Shown one piece after another: positions 1 to 14,287 of a stretch of 64,000 nucleotides of DNA. This DNA is from Gammaproteobacteria bacterium (GTDB lineage Bacteria; Pseudomonadota; Gammaproteobacteria; Steroidobacterales; Steroidobacteraceae): contig DAHUYP010000064.1 in the NCBI GenBank assembly GCA_027315105.1, forward strand, positions 1 through 64,000, written 5' to 3'. The notes beneath the pieces are model-generated. The model was not told the origin of the DNA, did not search any database, and saw nothing but the letters and a program-made list of their open reading frames with translations. Made by a program: the position numbers and the translations under genes. The stretch's first letter is position 1, and each line of letters starts with the position of its first letter.

Positions 1-7
1 CAGGCCG

Positions 8-430
8 GTGGCACGGCGCCGCGCGGCGGCGGCACCGCCGGCGGCGGCAGCTGCGGCGGCGATTGCAGCCACGGCGCTCGCGAGCGGCGATACGCAGCTG
101 GTGGCCGCGCCCGCGGCGGACGCTGCGCCCGCAGCCGAGGCGCCGAGCGCCGGCCCGCTGCGATTGGACGCCTCGTTGTCGATACGCGAAGTCGGCGAAC
201 GCGTCCTGCAGCTCAAGGCGTGGCTGGCGGCCGGACGATCGGAGTTGGATGTGAGCAAGCTCGAGACCATCGATACCGCGGGGCTGCAGCTGCTGCTGGC
301 GGCCGCCGCCGCCGCGCAGCGCAGCGGCGCACGGCTCAGACTGATCGGCGGCCAGAGGCTGCTGGCCGGCGCCGCCGGCGCCCTCGGGTTGGCCGAACCG
401 CTGACGGCGGCGGCGGAGATACTCCCATGA
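8..430 (+). CDS. STAS-domain protein of the chemotaxis cluster (5' end uncertain)
   Basis: Small STAS-fold (anti-sigma-factor antagonist-like) protein of 140 residues if started at the GTG at 8. The frame stays open to the window edge and no Shine-Dalgarno is visible, so the true start may lie upstream. Residues 1-48 are an Ala/Pro-rich low-complexity stretch; the STAS domain follows, with the core LDVSKLETIDTAGLQLLL. The Thr of IDTAG occupies the place of the phosphorylated Ser/Thr in SpoIIAA-type proteins. Its stop overlaps the next start (ATGA at 427-430), so the two are translationally coupled. By position it belongs to the che cluster that continues with cheR, cheD and cheB. A role in switching by phosphorylation is inference. 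Confidence 0.75.
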   Translation: MARRRAAAAPPAAAAAAAIAATALASGDTQLVAAPAADAAPAAEAPSAGPLRLDASLSIREVGERVLQLKAWLAAGRSELDVSKLETIDTAGLQLLLAAAAAAQRSGARLRLIGGQRLLAGAAGALGLAEPLTAAAEILP

Positions 431-1014
431 GCGCGCCGGATCGCGCGGCGCGCGCGCAGAGTCCGGACGGCGGGGAAGCCGCCGCCACGGCGAATGTCGC
501 CCTGGCCGCGGAGTTGCGGCGATTCCTCGAGCTCGGAGCGGCGCAACTCGATGCCGCCATGCGCGAGAGCGATGCGCGGGTGGACAAGCTCGCCTGCGCG
601 GTCACGGCCGTGTCGACGGATGCGCGCGAACTGGAAATGCACGTGCGGGCGCTGGACGGCGGCAATGCCGAGGAGGCGCAGCGGGCGCGCCAGCGGATCA
701 AGCAGCTGGCGGACGCGCTCGCCGCGCACGTGCAGGCGACGATCACGTCACTGCAGTTCTACGACAAGCTGATACAGCGCCTGACCCACGTGCGCGACGG
801 ACTCGCGATTCCTTCCGATTCCACGGCCAACGCCGTCGATCCGGCGGGAGCGGACTGGAATTCGATGCTCGAGCAGGTGCGCTCGCGCTACAGCATGGTC
901 GAGGAGCGGGTATTGTTCGACTTCATGATGCGCGGCCTGAGTGCCGATCAGATGCTCAAGGCGCTCACCGGACTGCGTGCATCCGCGTCGCCCGGCGAAC
1001 TCGAAGTGTTCTGA
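427..1014 (+). CDS. Uncharacterised helical chemotaxis-cluster protein, CheZ-like candidate
   Basis: Protein of 195 residues starting at the ATG that overlaps the upstream stop. I do not recognise the family with certainty. Composition and heptad-like spacing suggest a mostly helical protein, with coiled coil over roughly residues 30-115 and no signal peptide or membrane segment. The stretch LQFYDKLIQRL places Asp113 and Gln117 in a D-x3-Q arrangement on a helix, the same spacing as the catalytic Asp and Gln of the CheY-P phosphatase CheZ (E. coli D143/Q147 in FQDLTGQ). Length is close to CheZ (about 214). It lies between a STAS gene and cheR, so a CheY-P phosphatase or scaffold role is plausible, but this rests on a short motif and gene context only. 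Confidence 0.7.
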   Translation: MSAPDRAARAQSPDGGEAAATANVALAAELRRFLELGAAQLDAAMRESDARVDKLACAVTAVSTDARELEMHVRALDGGNAEEAQRARQRIKQLADALAAHVQATITSLQFYDKLIQRLTHVRDGLAIPSDSTANAVDPAGADWNSMLEQVRSRYSMVEERVLFDFMMRGLSADQMLKALTGLRASASPGELEVF

Positions 1015-1024
1015 GCGGCGCCAC

Positions 1025-1894
1025 ATGGCCGGGGAGAAGTCAGCCATGGCCGGGGGGGCAGACGGCTCGCTGGCGCGCGAATACGAGTTCTCGGCCGAGG
1101 ATTTCGAGCGTGTGCGCCGGCTGGTGTACCGGCAGATCGGCATCTCGCTGTCCGATTCCAAGCGCGAGCTGGTGTACGGACGGCTGAGCCGCCGGTTGCG
1201 GGCGCTCGGTCTCGAGAGCTTCGACAGCTATCTGAAGATCGTCGAGGCCGACGGCGCACCGGAGCTGCAGCATTTCTGCAATGCCATCACCACCAACCTG
1301 ACCTCGTTCTTCCGGGAGAATCACCACTTCACCTTTCTCGCCACCGAGTGGCTGCCGGCGCTGGAGGTCAGGGCCGGAGCAACGCGGCGCATCCGCATCT
1401 GGTCGGCCGGCTGTTCCACCGGCGAGGAACCGTATTCGATCGCGATGGTGATCCTCGAGACCCTCGGCGAGCTGCGCGGCTGGGATATCCGCATCCTGGC
1501 CACCGACATCGACAGCAACGTGCTGGGTCAGGCCCGCCGCGGGGTCTACGGGGGCGATCGGCTCGAGAAGGTCGAAGGTGATCGCATCCTGCGCTGGTTC
1601 GAGCGGGCGCCCGCGGGCGACGAGTACATGGTGCGCGATGAGGTCAAGAAGCTCGTGACCTTCAATTCGCTCAATCTGATCGGCGCATGGCCGATGCAAG
1701 GCCCGTTCGACCTGATCTTCTGCCGCAATGTCGTGATCTACTTCGACCGCCAGACGCAACGCCAGGTGATCGGCCGCATGGCGGCGCTGCAGCGTCCGGG
1801 CGATTGCCTGATCCTCGGCCATTCCGAATCGCTGCTCAGCATCAGCGACCAATACCGCCTGGTGGGCAACACCATCCATCGGCGGGTGGTCTGA
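1025..1894 (+). CDS. cheR: Chemotaxis protein methyltransferase CheR
   Basis: S-adenosylmethionine-dependent methyltransferase that methylates glutamates in chemoreceptor signalling helices. 289 residues, like E. coli CheR (286). The N-terminal helical domain covers about 20-85 (TTNLTSFFRE). The SAM-binding region WSAGCSTGEEPYSIAM and the late motif FDLIFCRNVVIYF are intact. An ATG at 1046 is an alternative start and has the better ribosome site (GGGGAG about ten bases before it); the ATG at 1025 is the longer choice. The stop overlaps the cheD start (ATGA at 1892-1896). Its counterpart methylesterase CheB and the deamidase CheD follow directly, and a receptor with a CheR-docking tail is next. 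Confidence 0.96.
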   Translation: MAGEKSAMAGGADGSLAREYEFSAEDFERVRRLVYRQIGISLSDSKRELVYGRLSRRLRALGLESFDSYLKIVEADGAPELQHFCNAITTNLTSFFRENHHFTFLATEWLPALEVRAGATRRIRIWSAGCSTGEEPYSIAMVILETLGELRGWDIRILATDIDSNVLGQARRGVYGGDRLEKVEGDRILRWFERAPAGDEYMVRDEVKKLVTFNSLNLIGAWPMQGPFDLIFCRNVVIYFDRQTQRQVIGRMAALQRPGDCLILGHSESLLSISDQYRLVGNTIHRRVV

Positions 1895-2541
1895 TGGAGC
1901 CGCCGTCCGACGCGCGCGTGGCGACCGACAAGCGTGCCAATGCGCAGCAGTTCAGCCACATTCAGCGCCGCTTCGATGCCCGCATCAACGCCGTGGTGGC
2001 GACCCTGCATCCGGGCGACTATTACGTCGCGCTCGAGGGCGAGGTGATCGGCACCGTGCTCGGCTCCTGCGTCTCGGCCTGCGTGCGCGACAATCGCCTG
2101 GGGATAGGCGGCATGAACCATTTCATGCTGCCGGTGGACCAGTCCGAGGGCACGAGCTCCTGGGGCAGAACGGCGAGCGCGGCCACGCGCTTCGGCAACG
2201 TCGCCATGGAGCGGCTCATCAACGGGCTCCTCAAGCTCGGCGCGCGCCGCAGCGACCTGGAGTTCAAGCTGGTGGGCGGCGGCAAGGTGCTCGAGGCGAT
2301 GACCGATGTCGGCTCGCGCAACATCCAGTTCGTGCGGCAATACGTGCAGGCGGAAGGTTTCAAGGTCGTGGGCGAGGACCTGGGCGACGTCTATCCGCGC
2401 AAGGTGCTGTACGATCCGGCGACCGGCAGCGCGCGCGTGAAGCGCCTGCCGCGCACCGACCGGTTGCTGGTAGCGGACGAGAGACGCTACATGAGCGACA
2501 TCGACCATGCCCCGGTCGGCGGCGAAATCGAGCTGTTCTGA
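1894..2541 (+). CDS. cheD: Chemoreceptor glutamine deamidase CheD
   Basis: Deamidates specific glutamines in chemoreceptors, creating sites for CheR. 215 residues. The CheD core is clear: catalytic Cys59 in TVLGSCVSAC and the catalytic His76 in GGMNHFMLP, with further family blocks GGGKVLEAM and RKVLYDPATG. The first 25 and last 25 residues extend beyond a minimal CheD (about 160) and look flexible. Translation is coupled to cheR by an ATGA overlap; cheB follows after 24 bases. CheD can also interact with CheC-type phosphatases in other bacteria; no CheC is in this window. Confidence 0.95.
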   Translation: MEPPSDARVATDKRANAQQFSHIQRRFDARINAVVATLHPGDYYVALEGEVIGTVLGSCVSACVRDNRLGIGGMNHFMLPVDQSEGTSSWGRTASAATRFGNVAMERLINGLLKLGARRSDLEFKLVGGGKVLEAMTDVGSRNIQFVRQYVQAEGFKVVGEDLGDVYPRKVLYDPATGSARVKRLPRTDRLLVADERRYMSDIDHAPVGGEIELF

Positions 2542-2565: not shown

Positions 2566-3666
2566 ATGGAGCGGTCGATTGCAGACAAGCGCATCAAGGT
2601 GCTGATCATCGACGATTCGGCCCTGGTGCGGGCGTTGCTGACGAAGATCCTCGATGCCGAGCCGGCACTCGAGGTCGTCGGCACCGCGCCCGACGCGTTC
2701 GTGGCGCGCGAGAAGATCAAGGCTCTGAACCCCGACGTGCTGACGCTCGACGTCGAGATGCCGCGCATGGACGGCCTGCAGTTCCTGCGCAACCTGATGC
2801 GCCTGCGGCCCATGCCGGTGGTGATGTGCTCGTCGCTGACCGAACGCGGCGCCGACGTGACGTTGACCGCACTGGAGCTCGGCGCGGTCGACTTCGTGAC
2901 CAAACCCAAGATCGACGTCGCCCATGCGCTCGAGGGCTACGCCGACGAGCTGATCCAGAAGATCAAGGTGGCGGCGGTGGCGCGCGTGCGTGCGCTCGCG
3001 CCGCGCCCGGCGCCGGCCGGTGCGCCGGCGGAGGGCCAGCGGCCCGCGGGCGCGCTGCATTTCCGGACCACCGATCAGATCGTCGCCATCGGCGCCTCGA
3101 CCGGCGGCACCGAGGCGATCCGCGAGGTGCTGTCGCGGCTGCCCGCAGATGCCCCCGGCACCGTCATCACGCAGCACATTCCGCGGGCGTTCAGCGGCCA
3201 GTTCGCGGCCCGCATGGACAGCTGCTCGCAGCTCAGCGTACGCGAGGCCGAGGACGGTGCGCTGATTCAGCCGGGCCTGGCCTTCATCGCCCCCGGCGAT
3301 CGGCATCTGCTGGTCGAGCGCGACGGTGCACGCTACCGCTGCCGGCTGCGCGATAGCGAGCCGGTGAACCGCCACCGGCCGAGCGTGGACGTGCTGTTTC
3401 GCTCCGTGGCCGAGAACGTCGGGGCCAACGCCATGGGTGTGATCCTGACCGGCATGGGCGCCGACGGCGCCCGCGGCCTCAAGCAGATGCGCGATAAGGG
3501 GGCGGTCACGATCGCGCAGGACGAGAAGACCAGCGTGGTCTGGGGGATGCCCGGCGCGTCGGTCGCGCTCGGGGCGGTCGACCACGTCCTGCCGATCGAG
3601 AAGATCGCCGAGGGGCTGGCGCATTTCGCCGAGTCGAAGGAACAGCGACGTGTCGCCGGAAGCTGA
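2566..3666 (+). CDS. cheB: Chemotaxis response regulator protein-glutamate methylesterase CheB
   Basis: Two-domain CheB of 366 residues that removes receptor methyl groups when phosphorylated by CheA. The receiver domain (about 11-130) has the acidic pair IIDDS, phospho-acceptor Asp62 in [12 protein letters not shown] and the conserved Lys of VTKPK. After an Ala/Pro linker (145-165), the methylesterase domain carries the catalytic triad Ser178 (GASTGG), His204 (ITQHIP) and Asp300 (GMGADG), matching the E. coli S164/H190/D286 pattern. The start at 2566 has a good GGAGG nine bases upstream. It ends the STAS-cheR-cheD-cheB transcription unit; the receptor downstream has its own promoter. Confidence 0.97.
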
Positions 3667-3713: not shown

Positions 3714-3819
3714 TTGCATCAGGACCTGGCCGGATTTCGGCAATTGATCCGCGCGCGTTGCAGCAATGTGACGCAGTTCGCAACTCAGAGTCTGGCAGCA
3801 TCGAGTTGGAGACGTGCCC

Positions 3820-6039
3820 ATGAGCCGTTGGATTCGCAGTCTTAAATTTTCGACCAAGCTGACGGTGATCGTCGTCGCGGCGATGGTGCCCATGGTCGTG
3901 CTGACCGTGCTGTACCTGTCCGAGAAGCAGAAGAACATCGAGGTCGCCGGCCGGCAGCTGGCCGGCCTGCACGCCTACCAGAACCTCGAGGCGATGCTGC
4001 TGCCGATCGGCATGCACGAGATCTGGAGCGCCGCGGCGGCGGCCGGCGAGAGTGTGGGTGACAAGCTGCAGGCTGCCGGCAACGACGTCGAGCGCGCCAT
4101 GAGCCAGCAGGAGGCGATGCACGATGACTACGGCGCGCCTGCGGGCGAGCAGCAGCGGCGCTGGAACGACATCAAATCGGCCTGGAACGCCATCGTATCG
4201 AGCCGGCCGGCGTCGGTGGCCGACGTGGTGCGCGCGCATAGCCAGATGCGGCGCAAGGTGCTCGAGTACCGGGACTACATCGCGACCACCTCGGATCTGG
4301 CGCTCGACAGCGATCCGGTGACCCATTTCCTGATCGACGCCACGGTCATGCAGCTGCCGAATTACGAGAGCTACGTGACCGAGATGCGCTCGCACGCCGC
4401 CAGCGTCGGCGCGGCCGGCAAGTCGAACCCGGCGGATCTCGAGGAGATCGGCCGCACTCAGGCGCTCGCGCAGGGCGCCCTGGAGCAGATCGACGACGAC
4501 ATCCGCCAGGCGGCGGAAGGCGGCGCCGCCGGCGAGGCGGTGCGGGCGAGCGCCGGGCAGATGCTGGGACAGGTCAAGAGCGCATTCGACGGCTTCCGCA
4601 AGTACGTCAAGCAGAGCGTGACCGGCGGCACCGCCGATTCGCTGGATGCGGTGCTGCAGAATGCGGCGCAGCTGACCCCGGCGATCAGCAGCTTTCACGA
4701 CTCGATGCAGCGGGCGACCGAGAAGCAGCTGATGCATTCCGCGGACCGGCTGCGCGGCACGCGCGATCGCATGGTGCTGCTGGTGGCCCTGTCGCTGCTG
4801 GTGGGCGTAGGCTCGATGATCATCGTCACCCTGACCACGGTCGGCGGCATGAATCACGCGGTCACGGTCGTCTCGCGCCTGGCGGAGGGCGACTACACGC
4901 ACGAGATCAAGGTGGACGGCAGCGACGAGCTGGCGCGCATCATGCAGGCGCTCAACGCGATGCAAGGCAAGCTCAGCGGCGTGCTCAGCGGCGTGAAGGA
5001 CAGCGCGGTCACGGTCGCGGCGGCGGCGCGGCAGATCAACGCCGGCACTGCGGATCTGTCCTCGCGCACCGAGCAGCAGGCCGCGAACCTCGAGGAGACC
5101 GCATCTTCGATGGAGGAGATGACTTCGACGGTGAAGCAGAATGCCGATAATGCCAAGCTCGCCAACAAGCTGGCGCAGGACGCCCGCGGCCAGGCCGAGC
5201 ACGGCGGCACGGTCGTGCAGCAGGCCGTGTCGGCGATGGGCGCGATCGACGTGGCCAGCAAGAAGATCGCCGACATCATCTCGGTCATCGACGAGATCGC
5301 GTTCCAGACCAATCTGCTGGCGCTGAACGCGGCGGTCGAAGCGGCGCGCGCCGGCGATCAGGGCCGTGGTTTCGCGGTCGTTGCCAGCGAGGTCCGCAAT
5401 CTCGCGCAGCGCAGCGCCTCGGCGGCGAAGGAGATCAAGGATCTCATTCACGACAGCGTCAGCAAGGTCGAGGAGGGCAGCCGGCTGGTGAGCGAGTCGG
5501 GCCGACACCTCGGCGAGATCGTGGCCTCGGTCAAGAAGGTCAGCGATGTGGTCGGGGAGATCTCCAGCGCCAGCCAGGAGCAGGCGGCGAGCGCCGACGA
5601 GATCAGTCGCGCCGTGATGAAGATGGACGAGGGCACGCAGCAGAATGCCGCCATGGTGGAGCAGGCCAGCGCTGCGGCAGCCTCGATGAACGACCAGGCC
5701 GTACGGCTATCGGAAGTGACGGCATTCTTCAAGCTGCGCGGCGCCGATGGTCGCGGGCCCGGCAACGCGGAATACTTCGGCTCCGGCGCCGTGCAACGAT
5801 CGACGGCACCGGCGTCGCCCACGCCGCCGGCCAAGCCGGCGGCGGCCCCCAAGAGCAACCCCGCGGCGCGCACGGAACGCCGCGCGGCCGCACGGCCGTG
5901 GTCGGCGCCGGGCGCAGCGCCGGCCGCAGCGCCGGCTGCCGCGCCGGCTGCCGCCCCGCGGCCGGCGCTGCGCAAGGAACCCCCGGCCGCGCCGCCGGCG
6001 GCTCCCATGGCCTCGGGCAGCGACTGGAGCGAGTTCTAG
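3820..6039 (+). CDS. Methyl-accepting chemotaxis protein with C-terminal CheR/CheB tether
   Basis: Membrane chemoreceptor of 739 residues; GGAG eight bases upstream supports the ATG at 3820. Topology: cytoplasmic start, TM1 about 13-33, periplasmic helical sensor about 34-315, TM2 about 317-341, HAMP about 342-395, then the cytoplasmic signalling hairpin whose tip [20 protein letters not shown] lies near residues 492-512. From about residue 640 to the end there is a long Ala/Pro-rich flexible linker that finishes in DWSEF. This fits the xWxxF pentapeptide that docks CheR and CheB at the end of high-abundance receptors such as Tar (NWETF). The ligand cannot be predicted from sequence. It probably works with the cheR/cheD/cheB genes just upstream and has its own sigma-28-type promoter. 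Confidence 0.95.
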
Positions 6040-6087: not shown

Positions 6088-6993
6088 ATGATGAGCGTAC
6101 ATAATTCCAATCCGGCAAGTGCTGCGCCGGTGCAGCGTGACGCCAGCATGGAGGCGTTCGAGTTCGTGCGCGAGCTGGCGAGCGCGCTGACGTCGAGCGC
6201 GATCGAGCTGCCGAGCTTTCCGGACGTCGCGGTGCGGGTGCAGAAGGTCCTGTCGGAGGATTCCGCGAACTCGGCGCGCGTGATGCGCGTGCTCGGGGCC
6301 GAGCCGGTGCTGGCGGCCCGCGTGCTGTCGATGGCCAATTCGGCGGCGCTCAACCCGGCGGGCAAATCGGTGGCCGACCTGCGTGCGGCCGTCACCCGCC
6401 TGGGATTCGACGCGCTGCGCTCGGCGGTGATCGGCTTTGCGATGGCGCAGCTGCGCCGGGCCAAGTCGTTCAAAGGCATCGAGCGGCACTTGAACGTGCT
6501 CTGGCAGCACAGCGTGCTGGTCGCGGCACTGTCGTTCGTGGTGGCGCGGCGTAGCGCCAGGATCAGTCCCGATACGGCAATGCTCACCGGCCTGGTGCAT
6601 GGGGTCGGCAAGCTCTACATTCTGACGCACTCGATGCGCCATCCGGTGCTGTTCGGCGACCAGGCGATGTACCAGCGCATCGTGCGCGACTGGCACGGCA
6701 ACATCGCCAAGGCGCTGCTCGAGAGCTGGTATGTGGCCGACGAAATCGTCAACGCGGTGCACAGCTACGAGGACGACGCGCGCGAGCCGCGCGGCGCCGG
6801 CGGCGTGCTGGCCGACGTCCTCGAAGTCGCCGAAGCGCTCTCCATGTACAAGGATTCTGCCGAGCTGATTCGCGCCCGGGTCGAGGGCCGCAAGGCGGCC
6901 GTGCGCCTGGGGCTCGATGCCGACACCTGCCAGGCGCTGGTGACCGAATCGGCCGCGGAACTCGCGGCCCTGCGCGACGCGCTCGGGCATTGA
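6088..6993 (+). CDS. HDOD-domain signalling protein
   Basis: 301-residue protein made of a single HDOD domain (about 35-240), a relative of HD phosphohydrolases usually without catalytic metal ligands. Family features are LPSFPDVAVRVQKVL, the VLSMANSAAL segment and AVTRLGFDALRSAVIG; at the HD position the sequence reads GLVHGVGKL, where the Asp of HD is absent, so hydrolase activity is unlikely. HDOD proteins act as non-enzymatic signalling or scaffold modules in motility and c-di-GMP pathways. Adjacent ATGs at 6088 and 6091 are both possible, behind a weak AAGGG. It follows the receptor by 48 bases and is probably co-transcribed. Confidence 0.88.
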   Translation: MMSVHNSNPASAAPVQRDASMEAFEFVRELASALTSSAIELPSFPDVAVRVQKVLSEDSANSARVMRVLGAEPVLAARVLSMANSAALNPAGKSVADLRAAVTRLGFDALRSAVIGFAMAQLRRAKSFKGIERHLNVLWQHSVLVAALSFVVARRSARISPDTAMLTGLVHGVGKLYILTHSMRHPVLFGDQAMYQRIVRDWHGNIAKALLESWYVADEIVNAVHSYEDDAREPRGAGGVLADVLEVAEALSMYKDSAELIRARVEGRKAAVRLGLDADTCQALVTESAAELAALRDALGH

Positions 6994-9166: not shown

Positions 9167-12267
<3,101 letters not shown>

Positions 12268-12271
<4 letters not shown>

Positions 12272-13650
12272 ACCCACAGCCCCTGCAGATACCAGCCGCC
12301 GTGGCGCAGATCGTGAAACACCCACAACCTCGCACCATCCGCGCCGCGCGCCACATAGTAATCGCGCGCGGCATCGCCGTCGTCCCACCAGCCGCTTTCG
12401 ATGCGCTCCGGGCCGCTCAGCAGCTCGGGCGCAGCCTCGATGCGCCGCGGGGCCGGCAGCAGCGCACAGGGGCGCATCGGCAGCATCGCCGGCGCGCCGG
12501 CGCCGGCGATCTCGCCGCTCTCGCGGCTCTCGCGCGGCGGCCGATGCCCGTGCCGCGGCGCGACGCAATCCCAGGCGCGCTCCGGCCGGTAATCGGCCCG
12601 GCTCTGCAGGCCCTGGATCCGGCTCTCGCCAAGCCGCGCCCGCAGCCGATCGAGCAGCAACTGCAGCTGCTGCAGCCGTTGCGCATCGCTGCCGAACAGA
12701 TCCGCCTGCACGATGGCCGGGGACGTGAACTCGAGGGCCTGCAGGATCAGCGCGCTCACCGGGGCCTCGAGCAGCGTGCGCTGCAGGCGCTCGCGCGCGA
12801 GCAGCAGGAATTGCGCCGCATCGCGCGCGGGCGCGGACAGACCGATCGTCACGCTGCCGGCAGGATGGCGGCGGTGCTCGAACTCGAGCGTGAAGTGCAG
12901 CACCGAGCAATCGCGGCCGCGAAGATAGCCCTGGAATTCCAGCAGCAGCCGCTGCAGCGGGAACAGCAGCGCGTTCGTATCATGCACCTCGCCGCCGAAC
13001 TCGCAGCGCGCGCGATAGGCCGCAGGCGCACGCCAGGCGGGCCGCGGGTCGCTCGCCGCGCCGCACAGGCGCTGCAGATAAAGGCTGGTCTCGGGTCCGA
13101 AGCGGCGCGCGATCGCGGCAGCAGGCAATGCGAGCACCTGGCCGATGCAACGCAGCCCGGCCGATTGCAATGCGCTCAGAATCGCCTCCGGCAGGGCCAG
13201 CAGCGACAGCGGCAATGGCTCGAGCCGCGCGCGCAGCTGCGGCAGCGTGAACGCGCAGCGCTGCGGCGGGGTGCGCGTGCCGACGGGCGCGTCGACATGC
13301 GTCAGCAAGGCGGCGCCGCTGGGCGAGGGCGCGAGCGCGCAGACATGGCTGTAGCCCAGCAGCGTCAGGCCGGCTTCGAGCTGCGCGAGCAGCGCGGCGT
13401 GGCCGCCGAACAGGGCGCGGCTGGCACCGAGCTCGAGCCAGAGCAACGGCTCATCGGCCAGGTGATAACTGACCAGGCTGGTCCACTGGTAGGCCCAGCC
13501 GGCCAGGCGCTCGATCGCTGCGCGCTCGACGGCGGCACGCTCCATGACGGCGTGCCCGGTGCTGCAATCCGCGGTGCTCGCCGCGCGCTGCGCGACGGCC
13601 GCGAGCGCTTCATGCGCCAGCCGCGGCAAGCGGATGCACAGCCACAGCAT
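12268..13650 (-). CDS. imuB: ImuB, catalytically dead Y-family polymerase homologue
   Basis: 460-residue Y-family polymerase relative that links ImuA and DnaE2 to the sliding clamp. The N-terminus MLWLCIRLPRLAHEAL replaces the usual metal-binding Asp-x-Asp start, as expected for ImuB, which lacks polymerase activity. The middle carries the little-finger-like region. QADLFG at residues 315-320 (12691-12708) fits the beta-clamp binding consensus QxxLF. The C-terminal segment with DYYVARGADGARLWVF is the ImuB tail domain. The start at 13650 lies 41 bases inside the 3' end of imuA; the stop overlaps dnaE2. Confidence 0.93.
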
Positions 13651-14287
13651 CGGCGCTCCTGCAATGCAGCCGCAGACCGGCGCGGCCAGCGCGCGACTTG
13701 TGGATCTCGACCATGACGCCGTCGGCCGCGGCGTGCAGTCGCAGCCGCAAGGCGGCCGGTGAGGCCTCGCGCGCCGCCTCGGGCGGCCGATAAAGAACGC
13801 CGAGGCTGCCGCCGGCCTCGGCCGCGAGCTGCAGGCGGCGCACGTTCCTGTCGACGATATGCGCCGGCCAGCCGAGCACGGCGCCGACCGCCGGGCAGCG
13901 CAGCGCCTGTTCCGCGGCCCACAAGGATTCCTGCAGGCTGCCGGTCTGGATGAGCAGCAGGCGTTCGAGCGGCAAGCCGCGCGCGGCGAGTGCGGGCGCG
14001 TACGGCAGATAGGGCGGGGCGATCCAGGCAATGTAGCGACCGGTGCGCGCCAGCCTCGACAGGGCGGGCATCAACAATGCCAGCTCGCCGATGCCGGCCG
14101 CATCGCTCATCAATTCCGTGACGGCGCCGATGGGCCAGCCGCCCCCCGGCAGGTTGGCATCGAGCTCGGGGAAGCCCGAAGGCGCCGCCGCCGGCGTGCT
14201 GCGCCGGGCAGTCCCGGTGCGGCACAGCTGCGCGAGCTGTTCGAGCAGCGCGCTGCGCTGCGGATCGCCGGCCGCGGGCGCCGTCAC
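13610..14287 (-). CDS. imuA: ImuA, SOS mutasome RecA/SulA-like protein
   Basis: 225-residue ImuA, a RecA-fold relative (sometimes labelled SulA-like) that works with ImuB and DnaE2 in damage-induced mutagenesis. Conserved ImuA features seen: FPELDANLPGGGWPIGAVTEL at the start of the domain, the IAWIAPPYLPYAPAL block, and LLIQTGSLQESLWAAEQAL. The Walker A is degenerate, as in the family. Translation starts at GTG 14287, overlapping the lexA stop (GTGA), and the 3' end overlaps imuB by 41 bases, so all four cassette genes are coupled. Confidence 0.9.
   Translation of the reverse strand: MTAPAAGDPQRSALLEQLAQLCRTGTARRSTPAAAPSGFPELDANLPGGGWPIGAVTELMSDAAGIGELALLMPALSRLARTGRYIAWIAPPYLPYAPALAARGLPLERLLLIQTGSLQESLWAAEQALRCPAVGAVLGWPAHIVDRNVRRLQLAAEAGGSLGVLYRPPEAAREASPAALRLRLHAAADGVMVEIHKSRAGRAGLRLHCRSADAVAVHPLAAAGA

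Follow-up and report, generated by a model that had tools for sequence, protein, structure and literature searches.

The window analysed here is a stretch of 64,000 nucleotides whose first base is the contig edge of C60, part of an assembly of 2.79 Mb (91 contigs, 86.7% complete). Its first genes belong to a chemotaxis cluster in the order STAS (cut), X, cheR, cheD, cheB, MCP and HDOD, where X is the gene of a candidate CheT- or CheZ-like phosphatase. The features are the following.

1-430, plus strand: STAS-domain gene (PF13466, 4.5e-10), its 5' end lost at the contig edge
427-1014, plus strand: X, CheT/CheZ-like phosphatase candidate, an open reading frame with an ATG start, 195 aa
754-777, plus strand: Q110-F-Y-D113-K-L-I-Q117, proposed active site of X, from its invariance and its register with CheT
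997-1011, plus strand: ELEVF, C-terminal end of X, proposed docking peptide, from the terminal F of the family
1025-1894, plus strand: cheR (PF01739, 4.8e-61)
1894-2541, plus strand: cheD (PF03975, 8.8e-28), whose product ends GGEIELF
2566-3666, plus strand: cheB (PF01339, 1.2e-65; PF00072, 1.3e-22)
3814-6039, plus strand: chemoreceptor (MCP) gene (PF00015, 2.5e-55), pentapeptide-like tail DWSEF as read from the C-terminus
6088-6993, plus strand: gene for an HDOD-domain protein (PF08668, 2.7e-32), next after the MCP gene

The stop codon of the STAS gene and the start codon of X overlap by 4 nt (ATGA, 427-430), and the ATG of cheR at 1025 lies 10 nt past the stop codon of X. The initial annotation described X as an all-helical-looking protein of 195 residues encoded between a STAS gene and cheR, with Asp113 and Gln117 in LQFYDKLIQRL. 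This description holds: the reading frame and both neighbors are present, the two residues occupy those positions (codons 763-765 and 775-777), and the AlphaFold2 model supports a helical protein. X is a real gene rather than a chance frame, since it has seven relatives and its profile finds matches in 55 of 369 genomes of the class. No meaningful match to X was found in Pfam (hmmscan, E<=1), NCBIfam or the sequences of the PDB. Elsewhere in the window, on the minus strand at 9167-14287, are open reading frames that resemble DnaE2, ImuB and ImuA of a mutagenesis cassette, as judged from their translations.

The seven relatives, which came from genome contigs, share 32-79% identity with X, and the profile of X plus these seven matches the 55 genomes at E<=0.001; relatives of X are common in Gammaproteobacteria. 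Matches of at least 50 bits occur in 38 of the 55 genomes, and every one of them is a stand-alone X by frame length and alignment, while the weaker matches include a second architecture in which the module is fused to a receptor. Gln110, Asp113 and Gln117 are identical in all 52 rows of an alignment that includes X of the window and was gathered with a profile itself containing the motif (loci L008-L038 are short duplicates and are excluded from the counts). These three are the sole fully invariant columns among those filled in at least 40 of the 52 rows, and Asp113 and Gln117 remain identical in 45 of 45 sequences after thinning at 70% identity; the two residues to which the initial annotation drew attention are thus conserved among homologues. 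Other conserved positions are Phe111 (51/52), the terminal Phe195 (50/52) and Trp144 (48/52). Judged from these matches, X belongs to a widespread unnamed protein family. MotW, a pole protein of V. cholerae, was considered as a possible link and dropped, as the accessible text gives it transmembrane and periplasmic domains.

The gene neighborhood of X varies within the family. Of the 22 loci in which X has cheR, cheD or cheA nearby, 19 have cheR as the very next gene (the exceptions are L007, L046 and L063). Genes often found upstream of X encode a STAS protein or a ParA-like protein together with a STAS protein (L044 and L047, with ParA read from sequence), and in L048 X lies directly behind a cheY of the same type as CheY2, the second CheY of the operon described below. 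Many copies of X lie outside che clusters. Some of these solitary copies are near HDOD genes (L059, L080, L087), and in L064, L070 and L072 a solitary X is followed by AlgQ/Rsd-like and CheV-like genes (names read from the sequences for L064, assigned by BLAST cluster for the others).

The remainder of the operon is found on contig C43, which carries the genes for CheY1, CheZ, CheA, CheY2 and CheW and whose final 69 bases match the opening 69 of the window at all but 2 positions. In L001 and L002 a single contig bears the order CheY-CheZ-CheA-CheY-CheW-STAS-X-CheR-CheD-CheB-MCP-HDOD; L004 has the same order up to the MCP gene, L006 spans CheY to X and ends inside cheR, and L003 and L005 start inside cheA. 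CheZ is placed in the X operon because of the overlap between C43 and the window together with these sister genomes. It is the single CheZ match of the genome (PF04344, 4.9e-43), its active-site motif is intact (YQDLSGQ), and the CheZ profile of this clade matches 1KMI at 7.7e-24. The genome also has two H-kinase_dim matches over the cut-off (74.7 bits on C43 and 32.8 bits on C85) and a FliM match. The initial annotation had named a canonical cheZ serving this cluster, beforehand, as evidence against its proposal, and a CheZ with an intact motif is indeed encoded in the operon. The idea of a phosphatase survives this finding solely on account of the two CheYs, from different clades, that the operon encodes. 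A role for X as a stand-in for a missing CheZ was rejected, given that CheZ is in the same operon and genomes with X are enriched for CheZ (31 of 38 have a match, although in G221 just one of 2.8e-4, versus 123 of 331). The other 7 of the 38 have no CheZ match, and some of these assemblies are incomplete.

The receptor-fused architecture accounts for about 25 proteins of roughly 400 aa among the weaker profile matches listed, 15 of which were fetched. All 15 consist of a membrane segment, an MCP signalling domain and then an X-like module, and PF00015 was found in all three that were scanned. Proteins of this kind lie at the following positions.

L081-L083, L085, L086, L089-L098 (e.g. L081:1555-2724) and L179:7971-9209: receptor-fused short chemoreceptors with a CheZ/CheT-like C-terminal module

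The module reads, for example, LQFQDRVSQILSHV ... SYxxxEER ... and ends in [IV]TFF or IELF. QFxDxxxQ is present in 15 of 15 proteins, and the gene directly adjoins cheY in 12 of the 15 loci, with cheA there too in 10. Comparison of X with the receptor-fused family by hhalign (98.6%, E 8e-16) exceeds all 121 shuffled or reversed controls, which indicates that X is related to the C-terminal tail of short chemoreceptors that are usually encoded beside cheY. In a set of 33 modules, termed A2, chosen from the 67 found (20 of 52 X and 13 of 15 receptor-fused, leaving out L091 and L097), the invariant columns are just Q, F, D, Q and the F at the end. As proposed here, the module combines a helix bearing QxxDxxxQ with a C-terminal tail of the form [DE]-hydrophobic-[ED]-x-F, and X and the receptor-fused form also share a [ST]Y[TS]MxxER-like block. 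Those receptor-fused proteins that have a name are annotated solely as methyl-accepting chemotaxis proteins; one is WP_320579541.1 of Pseudomonas sp. HR96, whose gene precedes those for a response regulator, a STAS protein and CheA. A sample of the phylum gave a module match in 150 of 398 genomes, with further frame lengths among the matches listed of about 330-360, 580-640 and 1100-1500 aa. A frame with Q[FY]xDxxx[QNR] is present in 26 of the 29 loci read from this sample, and the remaining three encode very long proteins with LQNIDRVxQRL instead. In L156, L159 and L161, frames of about 1180-1250 aa end in a module of the form LQNIDRVxQRL...RYVMEEER. Within a plasmid collection, two records match the receptor-fused form and none matches X (tblastn with the copy from L053). 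In the accessible text of the literature searched, which covers few subscription journals, neither X nor the receptor-fused module is described as a phosphatase.

CheZ acts on CheY-P through a Gln that positions the attacking water and an Asp that contacts the active-site Lys. The initial annotation proposed that X is a divergent CheY-P phosphatase with a CheZ-type D-x3-Q motif and suggested a profile search against CheZ. That search gave no match above controls: X does not match PF04344 (hmmscan, E<=1), and its score of 18.0 against a CheZ profile is reached by 56 of 100 controls shuffled in heptad blocks and by 3 of 100 shuffled by column, so that direct homology of X and CheZ by profile was rejected as not significant. 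The receptor-fused module by itself (13 sequences) does reach CheZ (35 sequences) with a score of 35.9, 73% and E 3e-5, where the maximum of 301 controls is 31.1, and QFQDRVSQ is placed over DFQDLTGQ with D and Q aligned. The mixed module of 33 rows scores weakly against CheZ (21.0, with shuffles up to 30.7). The core of the proposal, a divergent phosphatase, is strengthened by the invariance of Asp and Gln and by the profile ties of X to the receptor-fused form and to CheT; what does not stand is a place for X among the CheZ proteins, given the missing PF04344 match and a direct score no better than heptad shuffles. By membership X is not CheZ, but it most likely works like CheZ or CheT.

In the AlphaFold2 model of X (mean pLDDT 65, pTM 0.46) two long helices span residues 15-76 and 81-135, there are three further short helices, and Asp113 lies 32 residues past the start (81) of the second helix of the hairpin. 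CheZ is a four-helix-bundle dimer of two hairpins; the single-chain model of X has one predicted hairpin. A model of the clade's CheZ built from four sequences (pLDDT 58) has Asp158 likewise 32 residues into a helical stretch (126-185), although this residue falls in a predicted break at 155-158, and both models are of modest confidence. Searches of PDB folds with the X model returned generic long-helix proteins, with no CheZ among the best 50 matches each. This result is uninformative because the model of the true CheZ barely retrieves 1KMI (rank 37, E 1.1). PDB sequence searches with X alone and with the A2 profile found no relative, and the best rows for A2 were repeat artefacts. It is conceivable that X is a fast-evolving duplicate of cheZ that acts on the same CheY as CheZ does, as the common D-x3-Q spacing, the predicted hairpin and the position of the Asp could suggest. 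Weak matches to NCBIfam CheZ models point the same way (NF008368 in 2 of the 33 module sequences, best E 0.0023, and NF041271 in L151, 0.0086, far below the cut-off). We consider such a duplicate very improbable, however, as X and CheZ are together in one operon, 7 of 38 X genomes are without a CheZ match, there is no direct profile match, and the tails differ (ELEVF in X, VDALLLDLGV in the CheZ of the same genome).

One of the closest described counterparts of X is CheT, for which the primary paper is reportedly that of Agbekudzi et al. 2024. According to the accessible part of a review (PMC12654446), the CheT proteins from S. meliloti and A. fabrum have a DXXXQ motif and a predicted CheZ-like structure, dephosphorylate just one of two CheYs and form a complex with CheR. 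In S. meliloti cheS, cheD and cheT belong to a class F7 cluster without CheZ (PMC8429497, accessible part), and CheS, the described precedent for STAS control, which the initial annotation suggested for X, acts on CheA and CheY1 and not on the phosphatase, according to the same parts of PMC12654446 and PMC8429497. Since cheD is atu0521 and cheT atu0522 in A. fabrum, the reading frame after cheD was taken as the putative CheT in loci drawn from one family of large-genome relatives. A frame with QxxDxxxQ was found in 15 of 17 such loci and 14 were used, L175 being dropped; as the frames were chosen by QxxDxxxQ, presence of the motif on the CheT side is by selection. When the NCBIfam CheT model was applied to three of the putative CheT frames, L167 passed its cut-off (211.5 bits) and L165 and L176 matched below it (58 and 23.9 bits). 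X scores 32.0 against the CheT profile (59%, E 9e-5), above the maximum of 29.1 in 301 controls, with Gln110, Asp113 and Gln117 in register with the CheT motif. The NCBIfam model itself (NF047973) matches neither X of the window (E<=1) nor two other X proteins (E<=0.01), and the relation between X and CheT is one of remote similarity, not membership. CheT and CheZ give no profile match with each other (0.4%).

The two CheYs of the operon are of different types. In a tree of 69 receivers, CheY2, the upstream CheYs of X clusters, the CheY of L048 and the CheYs linked to receptor fusions are on one side (97/92), and the CheZ-linked CheYs, including CheY1 of this clade, form another clan (100/98); the tree has few columns and its support is rough. 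The CheYs were sampled from 29 of 30 CheZ loci (L099-L128) and 11 of 15 receptor-fusion loci, and the labels of L004_5848 (CheY2) and L073_17502 (CheZ-linked) are wrong in the tree, which does not affect its topology. The residue before xxKPF, which corresponds to Tyr106 of E. coli CheY, is Trp in all 28 CheYs on the CheY2 side (7 CheY2, 10 from X clusters and 11 fusion-linked) and Tyr in all 35 CheZ-linked CheYs, while six more receivers from X clusters fit neither type. As the two types fall on separate sides, the operon carries two CheY types along with two candidate phosphatases, and X may be the partner of CheY2. Alternatively, X could be a phosphatase for another receiver, namely CheB-P, CheY1 or, for the solitary copies, a response regulator outside the che systems. 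X does adjoin cheR-cheD-cheB, and its solitary copies are near AlgQ/Rsd-like and CheV-like genes or HDOD genes, but the tree puts on the side of CheY2 both the cheY that directly precedes X in L048 and those upstream in X clusters, and CheY1 has CheZ beside it. We regard another receiver as improbable and favor CheY2 as the substrate.

The C-terminus of X offers a second conserved element. It is Phe in 50 of 52 members and [I/V]ELF in 35 of 52, and ELEVF of the window is the clade's version of the [DE][IV]ELF tail, outside the pattern [IV]x[LF]F. That pattern ends 34 of the 44 X proteins and 12 of the 18 CheDs that score above 60 bits, and in five of the six remaining CheDs ELF or something similar lies one to a few residues short of the end of the frame; none of 1496 open reading frames of at least 150 aa without a che match, shadow frames included, ends in this way. 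When the genome of the window is searched at the DNA level for [DEG][IV]E[LF]F followed by a stop codon, cheD is the sole match. CheD of many X clusters ends in GG[ED]IELF or similar, so the tail is common to these CheDs, X, many CheTs and the receptor-fused form; nothing relevant to a CheD tail was found in the literature searched. Receptors of X clusters mostly end in xWEEF or DWSEF/DWDEF. GWEEF of P. aeruginosa binds CheR2 at 0.52 uM and CheB2 at 93 uM, as given in the accessible part of PMC7698151, and the resemblance of the X tail to such receptor pentapeptides is the reason for proposing, by analogy, that it may be a pentapeptide-like dock. CheR of this clade (window 1025-1894) lacks two residues of the beta-subdomain loop that reads RGxGxxxGxVRV in other X-cluster CheRs, which counts against docking to CheR here and leaves CheY2 or CheB. 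The clade's receptor still ends in DWSEF despite the shortened loop.

The tail also bears on the possibility that X is a non-enzymatic scaffold of the array that joins CheR, CheB and CheD, or CheY2, through its C-terminus, with QxxDxxxQ as a non-catalytic surface. The sharing of the tail with CheD, its similarity to the pentapeptides of the cluster receptors, the binding of GWEEF to CheR2 and CheB2 and the reported binding of CheT to CheR are all consistent with a scaffold. A scaffold alone, however, leaves unexplained why Asp and Gln, beyond the hydrophobic positions, are invariant in 52 of 52 members and why the receptor-fused form is tied in register to the active site of CheZ, and the available description of CheT makes it both a CheR binder and a CheY phosphatase. 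A purely structural role is therefore unlikely, though less so than the action of X on another receiver.

It is probable, from the evidence of sequence comparison and gene order, that X is a CheT-like auxiliary phosphatase for the second response regulator, CheY2. CheA would phosphorylate both CheY1 and CheY2. X would form a hairpin of two long antiparallel helices, the second of which would place Asp113 and Gln117, separated by one turn, against the phospho-Asp site of CheY2. On the model of CheZ, Gln117 would position the attacking water and Asp113 would touch the active-site Lys. By these residues X would clear CheY2-P, and CheZ would clear CheY1-P, the Tyr-type form. The conserved [DE]-hydrophobic-[ED]-x-Phe tail could dock X either to CheR or CheB, in the manner of a receptor pentapeptide, or to CheY, in the manner of the CheZ tail, and would hold X close to the array, while the STAS protein may tune CheA or X. 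If CheZ serves CheY1 and X serves CheY2, one operon would contain two pairs of kinase output and phosphatase.

Outside the E. coli system, the termination of chemosensory signals is poorly understood, and the X family suggests how one operon could separate two CheY outputs. An unannotated family with an invariant D-x3-Q, found in soluble and receptor-fused forms and partitioning with one CheY type, is a directly testable candidate, and it would make a testable class of enzymes out of many proteins annotated as 'hypothetical' or 'methyl-accepting chemotaxis'. A broader proposal, to which we give somewhat less than an even chance, is that throughout Pseudomonadota Trp-type CheYs are usually switched off by this module, whether soluble as in X and CheT or receptor-fused. 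If so, some receptors carry their own CheY phosphatase. The X clusters may belong to chemosensory class F7. F7 clusters of stages 1 and 2 have cheY and only F6 clusters also have cheZ, according to the accessible part of Ortega et al. (PMC7184735), and on the broader proposal the module would be the phosphatase missing from ancestral F7-type clusters, for which cheY and no cheZ is reported.

Among the known systems, CheC, CheX and FliY are auxiliary CheY-P phosphatases of che systems that have an alpha/beta fold and an ExxN motif; they differ from X, which has no Pfam match to their models (hmmscan, E<=1). In CheZ (PF04344, 1KMI) as in X, D-x3-Q lies 32 residues into the second of the two helices of the predicted hairpin, and a terminal Phe is found both in most of the X family and in 30 gammaproteobacterial CheZ sequences (L099-L128), but X ends in PGELEVF and is without the DDLLxxLGF tail helix of CheZ. 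The short chemoreceptors of about 400 aa share with X the QFxDxxxQ motif, in most cases a YTxxEER-like block, and the Phe end, and differ in that their module follows a membrane segment and an MCP signalling domain in the same chain, whereas X is a soluble protein. CheT is like X in its QxxDxxxQ motif, its helical character and its location in a che cluster that also includes STAS and two cheY genes, and 8 of the 14 CheT rows terminate in [LF]F, which recalls the C-terminus of X. The two differ in size (195 aa for X, about 130 aa for CheT) and in position, with X preceding cheR and CheT following cheD, and X coexists with a canonical CheZ, unlike CheT of S. meliloti, whose cluster is without cheZ.
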